From the NCBI RefSeq assembly GCF_023973165.1, contig NZ_CP099547.1:310001-374000 (forward strand): DNA of 64,000 nt, written 5' to 3'. The notes beneath the pieces were generated by a model. That model searched no databases. It was given only the letters and a program-made list of their open reading frames with translations, and had not been told where the DNA came from. The translations under genes and the position numbers were made by a program. Positions 14,892-21,234 of this stretch are shown here, in pieces; the first letter of the stretch is position 1, and each line of letters opens with the position of its first letter. This DNA comes from Arcanobacterium pinnipediorum (GTDB lineage: Bacteria > Actinomycetota > Actinomycetes > Actinomycetales > Actinomycetaceae).

Positions 14892-16331
14892 GTGAAACCC
14901 GCACCAACTGGAGAAATTCAAAACGTCGCTCCACACGAACTATTCTTTTCCACCACCGATTCCAAAGGCGTTATTCAACTCTCGAACGAAGTTTTCACCC
15001 GTCTGTCTCGCTACGACGTCGATGAACTGCGCGGTGCCCCACACAATATTGTGCGCCACCCCGATATGCCCGCCTCGATTTTCAAACTGGTGTGGGACTC
15101 CCTAGAAGCAGGCAAACCATTTGTTGCCTACATGCTCAACCTCGCCGGAGATGGCTCCGAATACGACGTTTTTGCCACCATCACTCCACTGCCCACCGGA
15201 GGGTATTTGTCGGTGCGCGCCCGCCCCATGCGCGAAGAGGTTTTCGCAAACATTCGCGAGGTTTACGCCCGGGTCCTTGACCACGAAAAGTCACTGATCG
15301 ACGGCGGACTCAACCGACGTCAAGCAGCTCAAGCCGCAGTGCCATTCCTCGCCCAAGAACTTTCTCGCATTGGAATTGACTCCTATGAAGACTTCGAAAT
15401 TTCAGCACTTCCCGAAGAAGTAGCCTTGCGTGAATCCTACGGTGCAACTTTTCCTCAACGCCACGGCCAATCCCAACTCCACGAGATGCTCGAAGCAGTT
15501 GACAAAGAACACCAAACACTTCAAGCCTGGATGGATCACCAAGACGAGTTAGCCAAGATGAGCCACCGGCTTAACACCGTCGTCGAACACGTGCGCACCG
15601 ATATGGCAAACGTCTTGGAAGTGTCGCGTGAATTTACCCAACTGGGCGAAGGTAACCCGGCACTGTACAGTGCGATCGAGCCACTGCTGGTGTGGAACCG
15701 GATGCAAAAAGTCAGTGCCACCTATCTCAATGCGCTCATCTCTAAGGTCACTGCGTTAAACGCACAAATTGCACAAACCCGCTTCCGGATTGCGCTATCG
15801 CGCCTCCACTCGGATATGTGTGGAATTTTCATTGCCGAACTCATCGACACCGGATATGATGCCAAAATCGGAGTACCGGGGCTTGCTCCCGGATTTGTAA
15901 CCCGCGAAGTCTTCGACGTTCAAGCTAACGAAACTGCCGAAGAACGTGCGATCCGGGAGCGGCTAGAATCCCTAGAGATGCTCAGCTCGGTACTCAACGA
16001 CGACGTCGAAGTCCTCCAAAGCCACGCCCGCGCATACCGCGAGCTTGCTGAGGATATCGCCCAGTACATGGATCGAGTATTGCATGCGATTTCGATTCCG
16101 CGTCAGTTACTTGAGCTGTGGCAAATGTCAGCAGTAGACGTAGAAATGCCAGAAATCATCGACTCTGCCAACGCCACCGTCGCCCAAGCCATCGCCCACG
16201 CCCAGGCCTCGCATGAACGCTTGGCGGATCTCCAACGCGAGCTCACCACTATCTCCGAGGTGGAAAACTTTGCTGAACTATCGCAGATCGTGCTCGAAAT
16301 CCATGCAAAAGTGTTGATTATGCAAGGATAA
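14892..16331 (+). CDS. PAS-domain sensor without a recognisable output domain
   Basis: The 479-residue soluble protein starts with GTG at 14892 after AGGAGAAA. Residues about 10-115 form a PAS domain of the Aer/aerotaxis type: FFSTTDSKGVIQLSNEVF, then the signature GAPHNIVRHPDMP and TPLPTGGYLSVRARP. In Aer this fold binds FAD. The rest (about 120-479) is mostly helical and predicted coiled coil, with no membrane segment, HAMP, MCP signalling, kinase, GGDEF or EAL motif. No chemotaxis gene is nearby. A cytoplasmic redox or oxygen sensor acting through protein contacts is possible, but the output is unknown. It is monocistronic and divergent from sbcD. Confidence 0.75.
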   Translation: MKPAPTGEIQNVAPHELFFSTTDSKGVIQLSNEVFTRLSRYDVDELRGAPHNIVRHPDMPASIFKLVWDSLEAGKPFVAYMLNLAGDGSEYDVFATITPLPTGGYLSVRARPMREEVFANIREVYARVLDHEKSLIDGGLNRRQAAQAAVPFLAQELSRIGIDSYEDFEISALPEEVALRESYGATFPQRHGQSQLHEMLEAVDKEHQTLQAWMDHQDELAKMSHRLNTVVEHVRTDMANVLEVSREFTQLGEGNPALYSAIEPLLVWNRMQKVSATYLNALISKVTALNAQIAQTRFRIALSRLHSDMCGIFIAELIDTGYDAKIGVPGLAPGFVTREVFDVQANETAEERAIRERLESLEMLSSVLNDDVEVLQSHARAYRELAEDIAQYMDRVLHAISIPRQLLELWQMSAVDVEMPEIIDSANATVAQAIAHAQASHERLADLQRELTTISEVENFAELSQIVLEIHAKVLIMQG

Positions 16332-16391: not shown

Positions 16392-17309
16392 TTATGAATC
16401 TAAAAATTCGTTCGTCCACGAGGATGTAACATCGGCCATCTTCCCGGTGCTAAACCCACCAGAAATCATCCACTGCATGTAGTTATCGACCAGTTCGGGC
16501 TGAATGTGACCCCAGCGTCCGTTATCGGTTAGCCACGATGGCATCATGAAGTTTAACGAATGTCGCAACACCTCAGGATCGACGTGGCACATGGTGTCAG
16601 CACAAGCTTCAAGTGCCTGATCTGGATGTGCAAAAGCATATTCAAAACCGCGTTGCGTAGCTTGGATAAACGAACGAACAGTATCGGGCTCCAAAGCGAT
16701 CATCTCATCGGTGGCACAGATAAAATACGTATGATGTGGCGTAACACCTACCTCGTCAAAGCTCAGCTGAACAATTTCGTCAACCGGGCTAATCCCTTGA
16801 TAAGACTCCCATCCTAAAACATTGAAAACAGCATCAAACTGTCCCTTTTCGACGGCGCGAATATCGGGTTCCCACATTCCGCCAGGGTGGACGATATTGA
16901 CTTTTGAAAAGTCTGCGCCAGCACGCGTTACTGATTGGCGAATTGATTCCACCAATCTCGGTTCAGTAAATGGAACGGCAACAGTTTTTCCTTCCAGATC
17001 CGCAAAGGAATGAATGTTTTTCGATTTCAAAGATATGACCCCACCCATTTGCCGCTGGTTGAAAGTCGCCAACGCTTTCATAGGATTCTTTCCTTGGCGG
17101 GTTTCAACTAATTCCCCTAACCGAATGGAGGCAAACTGGTATTCGCCCCGAGCAACAAGTTCGGCAGGCGTCCCGCGCTCCCACCCGTCAGCGATAATAT
17201 CGACGTCGAGACCAGCCTGGCGATAAAAGCCCTGGGCGCGAGCAGTAAATAAGCCGGCATGGTTTGGCCACGGATGAACATATTCCATTCGAATACGAAC
17301 GAGTTTCAT
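16392..17309 (-). CDS. THI5/NMT1-like substrate-binding protein lacking a signal peptide
   Basis: This 305-residue protein has the NMT1/THI5 type II binding-protein fold: an opening strand, WPNHAGLFTARAQGFYRQAGLDVDI, then ELVARGEYQFASI and DLEGKTVAVPF. It starts MKLVRIRMEYVHPWPNH and has no signal peptide or lipobox, unlike the lipoprotein encoded four genes upstream in the same operon. The Cys-rich motif typical of yeast THI5 pyrimidine synthases (CCCxC) is not seen. It follows the ATPase gene by 9 bp and is the last gene of the TPP-riboswitch operon, so it probably handles a thiamine precursor. A cytoplasmic binding protein or a divergent enzyme are both possible. Confidence 0.75.
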   Translation of the reverse strand: MKLVRIRMEYVHPWPNHAGLFTARAQGFYRQAGLDVDIIADGWERGTPAELVARGEYQFASIRLGELVETRQGKNPMKALATFNQRQMGGVISLKSKNIHSFADLEGKTVAVPFTEPRLVESIRQSVTRAGADFSKVNIVHPGGMWEPDIRAVEKGQFDAVFNVLGWESYQGISPVDEIVQLSFDEVGVTPHHTYFICATDEMIALEPDTVRSFIQATQRGFEYAFAHPDQALEACADTMCHVDPEVLRHSLNFMMPSWLTDNGRWGHIQPELVDNYMQWMISGGFSTGKMADVTSSWTNEFLDS

Positions 17310-17318
17310 TGTTTCTCC

Positions 17319-18065
17319 TCACATGTGTTGATTCTCGTCACACTGATACAGTGACTGATGTATTTGTTGGCAGGTGGCATAAAAGGCGCCATCCTTGGTA
17401 CGTCGCGAACCAGGTGTGCTAGGGACGTCAAATTGTTGAGTGAAACGTCCCGGGCGCGGGCTCATGACGATGATTCGATCAGCTAGATAGACTGCTTCTT
17501 CAATATCGTGGGTAACCAAAATCATCGTTTGGTTACGCGTCTGTAATATGCCCAAAAGCCAATCGTGGAGTTCAATGCGCGTAATTGCATCAAGGGCAGC
17601 AAATGGTTCATCGAGGGTGATCAAGGTGGGATTGATAAGCATGGTTCTCAAAAAAGCCACTCGGGAACGCATTCCGCCAGAGAGCTGATGCGGGTAAGCG
17701 TGGCTAAAACTGTTTAACCCGAACTGCGTGAGAATAGCGTAGGCGCGTTCGCGAGCTTGGGCTTTACTAACTTTTGCGATGCGCAACCCAAGTGCAACAT
17801 TGTCAACCACGGTGAGCCAATCATAGAGCCCTAGCCCCTGGGGCATATGCCCAAATACAGGCGTGGTTTTCCACTGGAGGCTACCACTAGTGGGTTCTTC
17901 AACGCCCGCAATGATGCGTAACAAGGTACTTTTCCCGCAACCAGTTCTGCCAACAATAGCTATTCGTTGCCCCACAGATAACGTCAACGACGTCGGACAA
18001 AGCGCAGTGACCTCAGGGTTCGTAAACGTTTTGGACACTTGGTTAAGGATTAGGAGCTCAGTCAT
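17319..18065 (-). CDS. ABC transporter ATP-binding protein (ThiZ-like)
   Basis: This is the ATPase subunit that powers import of the thiamine-related substrate. From ATG 18065 it has 248 residues; an upstream in-frame start at 18107 would sit well inside the permease gene. Motifs are Walker A GRTGCGKST near residue 40, the signature LSGGMRSR near 130, Walker B LITLDEPFAALD near 150 and the switch VTHDIEEAV near 185. The sequence resembles the SsuB/TauB/ThiZ group. The chosen start overlaps the permease stop by 8 bases, indicating translational coupling. It acts on the cytoplasmic face of the membrane. Confidence 0.88.
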   Translation of the reverse strand: MTELLILNQVSKTFTNPEVTALCPTSLTLSVGQRIAIVGRTGCGKSTLLRIIAGVEEPTSGSLQWKTTPVFGHMPQGLGLYDWLTVVDNVALGLRIAKVSKAQARERAYAILTQFGLNSFSHAYPHQLSGGMRSRVAFLRTMLINPTLITLDEPFAALDAITRIELHDWLLGILQTRNQTMILVTHDIEEAVYLADRIIVMSPRPGRFTQQFDVPSTPGSRRTKDGAFYATCQQIHQSLYQCDENQHM

Positions 18066-18831
18066 TACTTTCTGCCTTGCCACTTTTGACCACAACAGAT
18101 TCAACAAGTGTGGCTGTGCCGTAAAGCAATACGCTCATCGCCATCAACACGAATGCCACAACAAATACCAAGTCAGTGCGAAACGAAGCTTGAGCCGAGA
18201 TCAGCATAATTCCAAGCCCTTGGCGTGCTCCGACGTATTCTGCGAGAGCAGCTGTGGCTGGCGCATAAGTAACGGCTATTTTAATCCCCGAAAACAGTTG
18301 TCCAGCAGCTGCCGGTGTATGGAGATGGATAAGGCGCCACCATCGACAAGCCCCCAAGGTTCGTGCCACATCTATCTGGTCAAGTGTTGCGCTACCTAAT
18401 CCTTTGAGAAAAGAGATAGCTACGGGGAAGAACGTGTAGACAGCTACCAGCAAGATCTTGTTCGTCAAGCCAAAGCCAAACCAAATAATGAGAAGCGGCG
18501 CGATAGCTATGATAGGAATGGTTTGAGAGATCACCAACAGCGTGTGCATAAGGTGAGTCAATCCCCGCATGATAAACATGAGATAGGCAACCAGCATCCC
18601 AACGATTATCCCGCAACTGATCCCGATAATGACTTCACATCCGGTTACGTAAAGAGCCCGGATAACACTGTCATAGTTGTGGATCAACGCCTGTGCGATA
18701 CCCGTAGGAGCAGGAAGCGTCAAAGCATCTATTTCAGAGATCTTGACATATATTTCCCATCCAACAAGCAAGGCACTCACAGCCAGCACAGTGATCGCAA
18801 TTTTTATTCGCCGATTCGCCAAGCCCATCAT
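18058..18831 (-). CDS. ABC transporter permease (ThiX/SsuC-like)
   Basis: The 257-residue membrane protein has about six membrane segments and a BPD_transp_1 domain. The coupling region is present near residue 165, with LGACRWWRLIHLHTPAA in place of the usual EAA loop, preceded by LGSATLDQIDVARTLGA. It resembles permeases of the nitrate/sulfonate/pyrimidine-precursor group. The ATG overlaps the stop of the lipoprotein gene (ATGA type), and its own stop overlaps the ATPase start. Position in a TPP-riboswitch operon suggests uptake of HMP, formylaminopyrimidine or thiamine; the sequence alone does not settle which. Confidence 0.88.
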   Translation of the reverse strand: MMGLANRRIKIAITVLAVSALLVGWEIYVKISEIDALTLPAPTGIAQALIHNYDSVIRALYVTGCEVIIGISCGIIVGMLVAYLMFIMRGLTHLMHTLLVISQTIPIIAIAPLLIIWFGFGLTNKILLVAVYTFFPVAISFLKGLGSATLDQIDVARTLGACRWWRLIHLHTPAAAGQLFSGIKIAVTYAPATAALAEYVGARQGLGIMLISAQASFRTDLVFVVAFVLMAMSVLLYGTATLVESVVVKSGKAESND

Positions 18832-19838
18832 TTCACAAACTCATTAGTCACCAGATCTTCAGCCAAGAGTTTTGCAGATCTCGGTTGGTTATTGGCATCA
18901 AGGATAGTTCCATGCGCCACGAGATAATCCAAGAAGGTCTGCCACGCCTGCAAATCTGCCAGCCCGGTTCTACCCGTTGCATCTGGCCAAAACTTTGTTG
19001 TTAACAGCTCATGTGAACGCTTGACTAACTCTGGATTGAGCTGGGCATCGGGATTCTCAGCTATCAAAATATCGGAAGCTTCATCAAGATGATCCAACGT
19101 ATAGTCATACCCCTTTTTCGTTGCGCTAACAAAATCTTTGACAAGTTCCGGATCATTTTTGATCAGGTCATTTTTCGCCGATATTCCCAACACCGCAGGC
19201 GTTCCAGGCACACCCCACTCCCACGGATACATAAACCGCAACGCAGAACCTTTTAACTCAAACTCAATCGATTCCCAAGTGGATAATCCTTCGGCAAAAT
19301 CAGCACTGCCATCTGCAACAGCCTGGTACGCAGCAGTTCCCATAACAACGGTGTCAAACTCACCTTTTCCGCCGTCGTGTCTTATCATCTCCTTAACTTT
19401 GTCAGTGTTTTGCACACCACCATAAGTTGCAAAAAGTTTGCCATCGAGATCTTTGGGTGTATGAATATCGGAATCAGCCCGAACAGCTATTCCTTGGCTA
19501 GACAACGGCTGTAAGGAATAGACCATCTTCAAATCAGCGCCCTGCCCGTAGGCAATTGCCAGCGATTCAGCGCCCGTGAAACCAAACTCGGCCCCACCGT
19601 GCTCGACCACTGATTCAACCCCGGCTTGGGAAAACCCAAGAACTTCGACGTCGAGCCCAGCGTCTTCGTAATAGCCCTTATTGAGCGCAACATATATTCC
19701 GGTGTGATTGGTATTTGGTGTCCAATCCAAAATCACGCGCACATGTCGGTTAGCGGTATCGTCCGTCGTCGAAGCATCACATCCGCTCAAACCGGCAGCT
19801 AAAACGAAACTACAGCATAGCGCAAGAAATTTTTTCAT
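18828..19838 (-). CDS. ABC transporter substrate-binding lipoprotein (ThiY-like)
   Basis: This 336-residue protein starts with a lipoprotein signal peptide, MKKFLALCCSFVLAAGLSGCDAS, with the lipidated Cys near residue 20. An NMT1/ThiY-type domain follows: VILDWTPNTNHTGIYVALNKG, then ESLAIAYGQGADLKMVYS and DLDGKLFATYGG. The motif DWTPNTNHTG is typical of ThiY and THI5 relatives that bind pyrimidine precursors such as formylaminopyrimidine. It would sit on the outer face of the membrane and deliver substrate to the permease encoded next. It follows the kinase gene by 27 bp in the TPP-riboswitch operon. Confidence 0.88.
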   Translation of the reverse strand: MKKFLALCCSFVLAAGLSGCDASTTDDTANRHVRVILDWTPNTNHTGIYVALNKGYYEDAGLDVEVLGFSQAGVESVVEHGGAEFGFTGAESLAIAYGQGADLKMVYSLQPLSSQGIAVRADSDIHTPKDLDGKLFATYGGVQNTDKVKEMIRHDGGKGEFDTVVMGTAAYQAVADGSADFAEGLSTWESIEFELKGSALRFMYPWEWGVPGTPAVLGISAKNDLIKNDPELVKDFVSATKKGYDYTLDHLDEASDILIAENPDAQLNPELVKRSHELLTTKFWPDATGRTGLADLQAWQTFLDYLVAHGTILDANNQPRSAKLLAEDLVTNEFVK

Positions 19839-19865
19839 AGTAAACCTTTCAAAAAAACAAGTGGA

Positions 19866-21020
19866 TCAAGAAACGCATTGCGAAATATGAGAAAGAAATT
19901 GCTGACCTGGCCGCGATACGAACCACGCAGTGTGCCCACGGAAATACTCGTTATACGACCAGTGCGCAATAGACGCATCTACCGGGGCTTGTGCGTAATA
20001 TTCCAAGAAATGAAGTCCGGCTTCGACTTGAGTCAAGGCGAGCATAGGAGCCAACGATGCACGTTCTGCAGCGGTTAGGTGAACGTGATCGAGGTAGCCA
20101 GAAATAATCTCTGCCGCAATATCGTGGCGGGCGTGGACGTTGCCTCCAGCGCTAATGGCGAGCCAATCGATAGCATGGCGTTCTATCGCTATTGCAAGAT
20201 CAAAGATGCGCGGATTTACGGCGGCGAGGCCAAAATCAATAACGGATGTGACCTGTTCCTTATCCCACAACATATTCGAACAGTGCAAATCGCCATGCGT
20301 CCACTGTTGCGGGATAGTGGGATCGATATCTTCAGATAGTTGTCGAGGTAAGTCTAAATCAGACTCTATGTCATAGCCGTGAGTGGAGATAAAAGCTTTA
20401 ACTGCAGGATGGGATTCGAGAAAGTCAGGCAGGGCTTGAAGCGGATCAGATAGCAGAAGCTGGAACCGGTTATCATAGGCGCTCATTCCCGGATCATGGG
20501 CCGGATAATTCTCGCTCACATTGGCTAGCATCCCCGCTATCTGGCCGATCTTATGTGCTTCTTGAAGGGTGTTTGGCCCGGCCCAACTTCTCGTATTGCG
20601 ATACCTATCTTCACCCACTCCCGCATAGGTAGCTTCATAGATCCATTCACCTGAATCGGAGGCAAAACGCATAACCGATGCGATTTCGCCGTCATCTTGT
20701 TCGGTCAGCACCAAGGGCGGGGTAGGGAACCCAGATGAGTGTAGATACGTGGTGAAATCATGTTGAGCTTGCAACTGGCGGATTGGATACAATGCCGGCA
20801 GATAGCGTTTAACGAAAATATGGGGTAGGTCTGGCCCTAGATCTACCTCGCACCCGGCCGCCATAGGTCTATGCGAATGGCGCACGATGCGAGGAGAAAC
20901 ATGGGTAGTAGACAAAACTCCCAGATCTGAAACGATCCGGGAGGAGTAGTGAGCAATCTCAGCCTGCGTTATGGCAGGCCATTTCTGCTCGACTACCGTT
21001 AGCTGTTGCTCGACTTCCAT
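19866..21020 (-). CDS. APH-fold phosphotransferase, candidate thiamine-related kinase
   Basis: The 384-residue protein has the aminoglycoside/choline-kinase fold. The catalytic loop is WTHGDLHCSNMLW near residue 240, and the metal-binding DFG is in VIDFGLAAVNPRIFDLAIAIER near 258. The family includes choline, thiamine (ThiK), homoserine and antibiotic kinases, so sequence alone does not give the substrate. It is the first gene after a TPP riboswitch, with AAAAGG shortly before its ATG, and it precedes thiamine-precursor transport genes. Phosphorylation of imported thiamine or of a precursor is therefore the best inference. It has no signal peptide. Antibiotic resistance is unlikely given the regulation. 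Confidence 0.75.
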   Translation of the reverse strand: MEVEQQLTVVEQKWPAITQAEIAHYSSRIVSDLGVLSTTHVSPRIVRHSHRPMAAGCEVDLGPDLPHIFVKRYLPALYPIRQLQAQHDFTTYLHSSGFPTPPLVLTEQDDGEIASVMRFASDSGEWIYEATYAGVGEDRYRNTRSWAGPNTLQEAHKIGQIAGMLANVSENYPAHDPGMSAYDNRFQLLLSDPLQALPDFLESHPAVKAFISTHGYDIESDLDLPRQLSEDIDPTIPQQWTHGDLHCSNMLWDKEQVTSVIDFGLAAVNPRIFDLAIAIERHAIDWLAISAGGNVHARHDIAAEIISGYLDHVHLTAAERASLAPMLALTQVEAGLHFLEYYAQAPVDASIAHWSYNEYFRGHTAWFVSRPGQQFLSHISQCVS

Positions 21021-21047
21021 AAGTCACCTTTTAGGCACAGCACGGCA

Positions 21048-21141
21048 CCGACGCGCGACGTTCCTCCGCTGGCATTACCCAGTTCAGGTCAACGGTCGGA
21101 GGTGGGACCCTCCCTCTCAGCCACAATGGCTCCCGTGTCGG
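21048..21141 (-). promoter_or_regulatory. TPP riboswitch (THI element)
   Basis: On the minus strand the conserved THI-box parts appear in order: GGCTGAGAGGG with ACCC-type sequence after it, then ACCTGAACTGGGTAATGCC and AGCG. The P1 helix pairs CCGAC (21137-21141) with GTCGG (21048-21052). It lies 28 bases before the start of the kinase gene at 21020, in the right orientation. A short distance to the Shine-Dalgarno sequence fits translational control, with thiamine pyrophosphate turning the five-gene operon off. Confidence 0.93.
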
Positions 21142-21234
21142 TTACAGGATAACAGGCTTTTGTGATGCTGGCATATTTTTGATATCCACAACACAGCATA
21201 TACGTAGGTGGGTGCTACCCAAGAGGCGTAAATC

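Follow-up and report, generated by a model that had tools for sequence, protein, structure and literature searches.

In Escherichia coli, thiamine is salvaged by ThiK, ThiL turns thiamine monophosphate (TMP) into thiamine pyrophosphate (TPP), and ThiBPQ carries thiamine, TMP, and TPP, according to the excerpted text of PMC4112796. YkoF is the thiamin/hydroxymethylpyrimidine (HMP)-binding protein of the yko operon, and a thiXYZ operon of Paenibacillus apiarius encodes a 98-amino-acid thiamin-binding protein, as described in the excerpted text of PMC5627462. A locus of Arcanobacterium pinnipediorum, found in a window of 64,000 nucleotides (contig NZ_CP099547.1, positions 310,001 to 374,000), places a TPP riboswitch before five genes encoding an APH-fold small-molecule kinase, a lipoprotein substrate-binding protein (SBP), a permease and an ATPase of the ATP-binding cassette (ABC) type, and a second NMT1/THI5-fold protein without a signal peptide, referred to here as the terminal protein. 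It is about evenly balanced, in our judgment, whether the whole is a TPP-repressed thiamine-salvage cassette with a thiamine kinase and a cytosolic binder in a probable auxotroph. Beyond what the first-pass annotation had noticed, the distribution of the terminal protein follows the kinase and not the importer.

This linkage was revealed by searching 213 genomes of the family with a kinase profile (E 1e-15) and a terminal-protein profile (E 1e-30). The kinase is present in 16 genomes and the terminal protein in 15, all of them among those 16, and the terminal protein was never found without the kinase. In 13 of the 16 kinase genomes, the window included, the riboswitch and the genes for kinase, SBP, permease, ATPase, and terminal protein follow one another in the same order, and the proteins of the 12 other cassette genomes are about 32-56% identical to those of the window, a recurrence that is beyond chance. 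A TPP riboswitch immediately precedes the kinase in 15 of the 16 (the window, a set of eight loci, and a set of six). The remaining genome, G272, has the kinase alone, with neither a TPP riboswitch match nor a terminal protein. In G601, one of the 13 cassettes, the terminal gene is disrupted by a frame change and an in-frame stop, and some 30 of its residues are unmatched (L148, approximately 7654-6864, minus strand); the kinase, riboswitch, and transporter genes are still in place.

Two genomes, G585 and G605, carry the riboswitch, kinase, and terminal gene in succession without importer genes, and each has a second adjoining kinase-terminal pair (L145 and L147) with no TPP riboswitch match and no importer. 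Within the 16 kb read in these genomes there is no cassette permease match and no separate SBP, the SBP query hitting the terminal protein alone; the only further transporter hits, weak ATPase matches in L144 and L146 (28-30%), belong to other genes more than 3.5 kb from the pair. By eye, the gene preceding the second pair in L145 resembles a superoxide dismutase. The second copies of both genomes group with G279 (support 100/100 in the kinase tree and 99/97 in the terminal-protein tree), the first copies group with G597, G370, G347, and G588 of their own genus (100/99 and 100/100, respectively), and G596, of the same genus as these four, groups with the g182 genomes (89/90 and 100/100, respectively). 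Because the copies group alike in both trees, the kinase and terminal genes seem to move as a unit. The distances of the two proteins agree with this, correlating at r = 0.94 over 16 pairs, a value reached by none of 2000 permutations. From the existence of importer-free pairs and from the way the terminal protein tracks the kinase, we conclude that the kinase and the terminal protein form the core, to which the importer is optional; the importer-free pairs therefore speak against the terminal protein being a second SBP or a mere regulator of the importer. In a phylum sample of 396 genomes, in many of which only five first-look candidates were scored, the kinase profile matched its own genome alone at E 1e-10; the single kinase sequence gave no match besides its own genome among 246 genomes, and one further contig-level scan returned a single locus, which contains L044 whole.

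The proposed role of the kinase follows from the thiamine genes around it, which were surveyed in a family panel of 36 genomes made up of 10 kinase bearers, 8 kinase-less genus mates, and 18 others; six kinase genomes (G585, G588, G596, G597, G601, and G605) stand outside this panel. ThiL is found above the cut-off in 34 panel genomes, including all 10 kinase bearers (G300 only after two same-frame pieces are added), and the ThiL of the source genome scores 212.3 bits against TIGR01379. The TPK model PF04263 has some match in 28 of the 36, of domain length in only two (G251 and G373) and in no kinase bearer; the short matches span about positions 5-48 of the 113 in the model. The match in the source genome itself (positions 9-44) was considered as a real TPK and rejected, the protein being the division protein SteA (503 bits). 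ThiC occurs in one panel genome and ThiE/TMP-TENI above the cut-off in five, neither of them in any of the 10 kinase bearers (G279 has one weak partial ThiE match below the cut-off), and ThiE has no match in the source genome. The source bacterium is thus probably a thiamine auxotroph, and the imported vitamer should be thiamine or its phosphate because, without ThiE, HMP and thiazole cannot become TMP, a ThiN-type alternative not having been searched for. As a separate observation, G251 and G373, the only panel genomes with a domain-length TPK, are also the only two without ThiL above the cut-off; within one family, the enzymes for the final step of thiamine activation are thus exchanged exactly.

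Since it sits under TPP control in a ThiL-only genome, the kinase is best read as a thiamine kinase supplying ThiL, ThiK-like in role and unlike ThiK in sequence; on this genomic context, it is somewhat more likely than not to act on thiamine. The motifs that led the first-pass annotation to call an APH-fold kinase, HGDLHCSN followed by DFG, were recovered together with a Pfam APH match, and the pattern HGDxHxSN then DFG is kept in all 17 kinase rows examined, which represent every kinase genome except G601 (15 of 16). Mean column identity is 55% for the kinases (10 rows), compared with 65% for the SBPs (9 rows) and 72% for the terminal proteins (9 rows), which are the best conserved of the three. 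An AlphaFold2 model of the kinase built from a two-row alignment has a mean pLDDT of 47.5.

The importer was also as annotated, with Pfam matches for a lipoprotein SBP, a permease, and an ATPase, and a lipobox is present in all nine cassette SBPs examined from the 13 cassettes. The SBP is encoded beside a permease and an ATPase, as for the ThiY-type SBP of the NMT1 family. The SBP family profile scores 204.5 bits against 4NMY versus 117.3 bits against the formylaminopyrimidine binder 3IX1, so that by sequence comparison the closest solved relative of the lipoprotein is 4NMY, a structure that carries bound thiamin according to the excerpted text of PMC10586155. Together with the gene content, in which ThiL is present and ThiC and ThiE have no match, this similarity makes thiamine or thiamine phosphate, not a pyrimidine precursor, the likely cargo. 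Of the earlier suggestion of thiamine or precursor salvage, the riboswitch-led salvage unit with kinase and importer is therefore retained and a pyrimidine precursor becomes the less likely cargo. In L050 (4486-6102) and L051 (4431-6047), the permease and the ATPase lie in a single uninterrupted reading frame, apparently as a fused subunit.

The terminal protein is predicted to stay in the cell. As first annotated, it is an NMT1/THI5-like protein without a signal peptide: none of the 16 terminal proteins examined, from 14 of the 15 genomes, has a lipobox, and their N-termini are less hydrophobic than those of the SBPs. For the terminal gene of the window, the nearest in-frame stop upstream ends 9 nucleotides before the ATG, so no hidden upstream leader is present. 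The terminal-protein profile (9 rows) scores 127.3 bits against 4NMY, 86.0 against 3IX1, and 55.2 against yeast THI5. A tree of 46 rows combined 16 terminal proteins and 9 cassette SBPs with 21 further matches of the family, and its long branches make the deeper joins unsafe; in it, the terminal proteins form their own 100/100 clade on a branch of length 1.71, and the cassette SBPs stand apart from them with support 93/94. The possibility that the terminal protein is a recent duplicate of the cassette SBP was rejected on the basis of this separate clade. In a profile alignment, the SBP motif LDW lies opposite M/L-E-Y of the terminal family, in which E9-Y10 is invariant; the change is conservative and keeps an aromatic residue, which is compatible with binding of a similar ring. 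Also invariant across the 16 aligned proteins are D41-G42, R45-G46, R63-L64-G65, N84-Q85, and H192-H193, among others. The terminal protein of L044 is 56% identical to that of the window, the highest of the five proteins (the others reach 40-50%); in L045 and L046, the ATPase is marginally closer to the window over its aligned part than the terminal protein is. When plasmids were searched with the terminal protein, 190 records were returned, each below 60% identity, and the three examined among the matches listed show ordinary-looking transporter operons. Three features favor a cytosolic thiamine binder serving the kinase: the protein is confined to kinase genomes, it carries no signal peptide, and it lacks the THI5 catalytic residues described below. 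That it is a binder or carrier rather than an enzyme or a sensor is held tentatively, at somewhat less than an even chance.

In the proposed mechanism, low TPP would allow the riboswitch to permit expression of the operon, as is the behavior of this riboswitch family. The lipoprotein SBP, the permease, and the ATPase could then import thiamine, in keeping with the similarity to a thiamin-bound SBP, and the APH-fold kinase may convert thiamine to TMP, which would both trap the vitamin and provide the substrate of ThiL, the one TPP-forming enzyme found in the genome of the two looked for (ThiL and TPK). The terminal protein, a periplasmic-binding-protein fold that may have been permanently relocated to the cytosol, could bind thiamine and buffer it or pass it to the kinase. 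A bolder possibility, which we consider doubtful, is a two-component thiamine kinase, in which a cytosolic subunit of this fold delivers or prepares the substrate for a member of an unrecognized thiamine kinase family, the pair forming a mobile riboswitch-controlled module with an optional importer.

Several observations weigh against the thiamine-salvage reading. Among the 26 kinase-less panel genomes, 24 combine ThiL with the lack of a domain-length TPK; 19 of these 24 are without ThiE above the cut-off (20 if a partial 27.3-bit match in G246 is set aside). Such genomes must rely on a different kinase or take up thiamine already phosphorylated (TMP or TPP), and since the same gene profile exists without it, the cassette kinase is not a universal missing step. 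A thiBPQ system already lies behind the other TPP riboswitch of the source genome, as it does behind a riboswitch match in seven further kinase bearers read (in G272 this match is below the gathering score), and the cassette is therefore an addition to an existing transport route, in which, as a guess, it may serve free thiamine and thiBPQ the phosphates. A different ABC system, which has ATPase matches but matches neither ThiB nor ThiP, occupies the region of the other TPP riboswitch in L098 and L105 (G370 and G347) and in L099 (G254), in contrast to the thiBPQ of the other genomes read. In two of the 16 kinase genomes the terminal gene is missing (G272) or broken (G601); the protein is thus dispensable there, which fits an accessory role. 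Common descent and linkage inflate the correlation between kinase and terminal-protein distances, and long branches that meet are flagged in the kinase tree. Finally, the kinase could not be tied to ThiK by sequence: E. coli ThiK scores -1.3 bits against the kinase-family profile, the best blastp match has E 0.064 over 35 residues, and no similarity is recognizable beyond the HGD/DFG motifs. The best named relatives, the homoserine kinases of the nearest curated models, score far below the cut-off.

The last point bears directly on the possibility that the substrate is not thiamine, the protein instead phosphorylating, for example, HMP, thiazole, or an amino alcohol and being tied to thiamine status merely by the riboswitch. 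APH-fold kinases vary widely in substrate, and the ThiL-only profile is common to many kinase-less relatives. This alternative is nevertheless somewhat unlikely given the TPP riboswitch directly before the kinase in nearly all of its genomes, and given that, without ThiE, HMP and thiazole kinases would be useless for thiamine in the 10 genomes tested. With thiamine kept as the preferred substrate, the main rival concerns the terminal protein, which could be an enzyme that produces the kinase substrate from an imported derivative of thiamine (a degraded, oxidised, or acylated form) by means of its own conserved polar residues. Its invariant residues, its high conservation, and its occurrence with the kinase in the absence of an importer would suit such a role, and the fold already hosts an enzyme, THI5; to our knowledge, no enzyme of the NMT1/THI5 fold with the conserved residues of the terminal family has been described. 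We regard it as unlikely, because the kinase stands alone in G272 and persists beside a broken terminal gene in G601, and a structure model of the terminal protein (AlphaFold2 from a two-row alignment, mean pLDDT 38.5) is too poor to reveal a cleft.

A sensor role would have the terminal protein throttle the importer from inside the cell in the manner of NrtC, the nitrate transporter ATPase that carries a cytosolic SBP-like domain. Membership of an SBP family and a terminal gene that immediately follows that of the ATPase in all 13 transporter cassettes agree with this idea, which is improbable in view of G585 and G605, where the protein occurs twice each with the kinase and with no importer in the 16 kb read, and of its consistent absence where there is no kinase. 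Far less probable still is a THI5-type HMP phosphate synthase, which would supply the thiamine pyrimidine. The terminal protein belongs to the same Pfam family as yeast THI5, aligns with it, and likewise has no signal peptide. In a gap-free alignment of 16 rows, however, THI5 Lys62, the lysine that holds pyridoxal phosphate, is replaced by I, L, A, or V; His66, the donor histidine, by E, H, or Q (His in four); and the CCCFC motif, which likewise has a role in the enzyme, aligns with a stretch running into PHHxYF, with H192-H193 opposite the Cys-rich stretch. Processing in the manner of THI5 is thus not supported, both solved SBPs outscore THI5, and ThiE, needed for the use of HMP, has no match in the source genome; residues and pathway gene content together led us to reject this identity. 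The cytosolic binder serving the kinase remains the favored reading.

The features of the locus are collected in Table 1. The covariance search recovered the THI element that had been proposed upstream of five tightly spaced minus-strand genes (open reading frames 21020-16392), with an E value of 7.1e-9, above the gathering score and over the full model (positions 1-105), and the same element was found when the source genome (1.95 Mb, one contig) was searched as a whole. The kinase gene begins 22 bases past the end of the model match, and neighboring cassette genes are separated by short gaps or overlap. For the ATPase, the mechanically called start is TTG 18107; ATG 18065 is most likely the true start because it overlaps the permease stop. 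Hairpins predicted in the leaders of L045, L047, L048, and L052 take in the Shine-Dalgarno region immediately 3' of the aptamer, which suggests that control may act on translation start. The convergent neighbor on the plus strand (14892-16331) resembles, by eye, a sensor protein of the PAS type and shows no evident membrane segment.

Table 1. Features of the riboswitch-led cassette, with positions in the window.
Feature	Position	Strand	Evidence
TPP riboswitch aptamer (THI element, RF00059)	21043..21146	-	cmscan 58.4 bits against a gathering score of 54.3
APH-fold small-molecule kinase, 384 aa, proposed thiamine kinase	19866..21020	-	Pfam APH 71.5 bits; catalytic motifs
NMT1/THI5-family lipoprotein SBP, 336 aa	18828..19838	-	Pfam NMT1 167 bits; PDB matches; lipobox
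ABC permease, 257 aa, overlapping the SBP stop	18058..18831	-	Pfam BPD_transp_1 86.4 bits
ABC ATPase	17319..18065	-	Pfam ABC_tran 94.6 bits
Signal-less NMT1/THI5-fold terminal protein, 305 aa, predicted cytosolic	16392..17309	-	Pfam NMT1 157.2 bits; no signal peptide

Each kind of component is already known, and TPP-riboswitch-controlled thiamine salvage is a known theme. In titles and abstract openings of the open-licence literature, among the matches listed, there was no description of the cassette as combined here, and in particular none of a kinase and a leaderless NMT1 protein as an importer-independent unit. Gene content alone leaves thiamine activation in ThiL-only, TPK-less bacteria unexplained, and the cassette names a candidate kinase and a candidate cytosolic binder for it. 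If the partner does hand the substrate to the kinase, a nutrient-binding protein would have been relocated into the cell to work for an enzyme rather than for a transporter; the kinase-terminal pairs that lack a transporter allow a direct test of this linkage.

Compared with ThiK feeding ThiL in E. coli, the cassette likewise offers an APH-type kinase, here proposed to convert imported thiamine to TMP, with ThiL in its own genome; in contrast to ThiK, the kinase is alike in the HGD/DFG motifs alone, is led by a TPP riboswitch, and is coupled to a cytosolic homolog of binding proteins. The NMT1-family lipoprotein SBP, the single permease, the single ATPase, and the TPP riboswitch are shared with ThiXYZ/ThiXYZ2-type importers (as given in Table 1 of PMC6593275), from which the cassette differs in the kinase before and the leaderless NMT1 protein after the importer genes and in an SBP nearest to thiamin-bound 4NMY. 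The terminal protein differs from ThiY-type SBPs in having no export signal (0 of 16 with a lipobox); it shares the Pfam family and the lack of a signal peptide with the HMP phosphate synthases THI5/THI13, and differs from them in lacking the lysine, the histidine, and the Cys motif, in a genome with no ThiE match for use of the product. YkoF and the P. apiarius protein, thiamin/HMP-binding proteins of TPP-riboswitch transport operons, offer a partial precedent for a cytosolic binder, whereas the cassette protein has the NMT1/THI5 fold, as assigned by Pfam, and is linked to a kinase rather than to a transporter.

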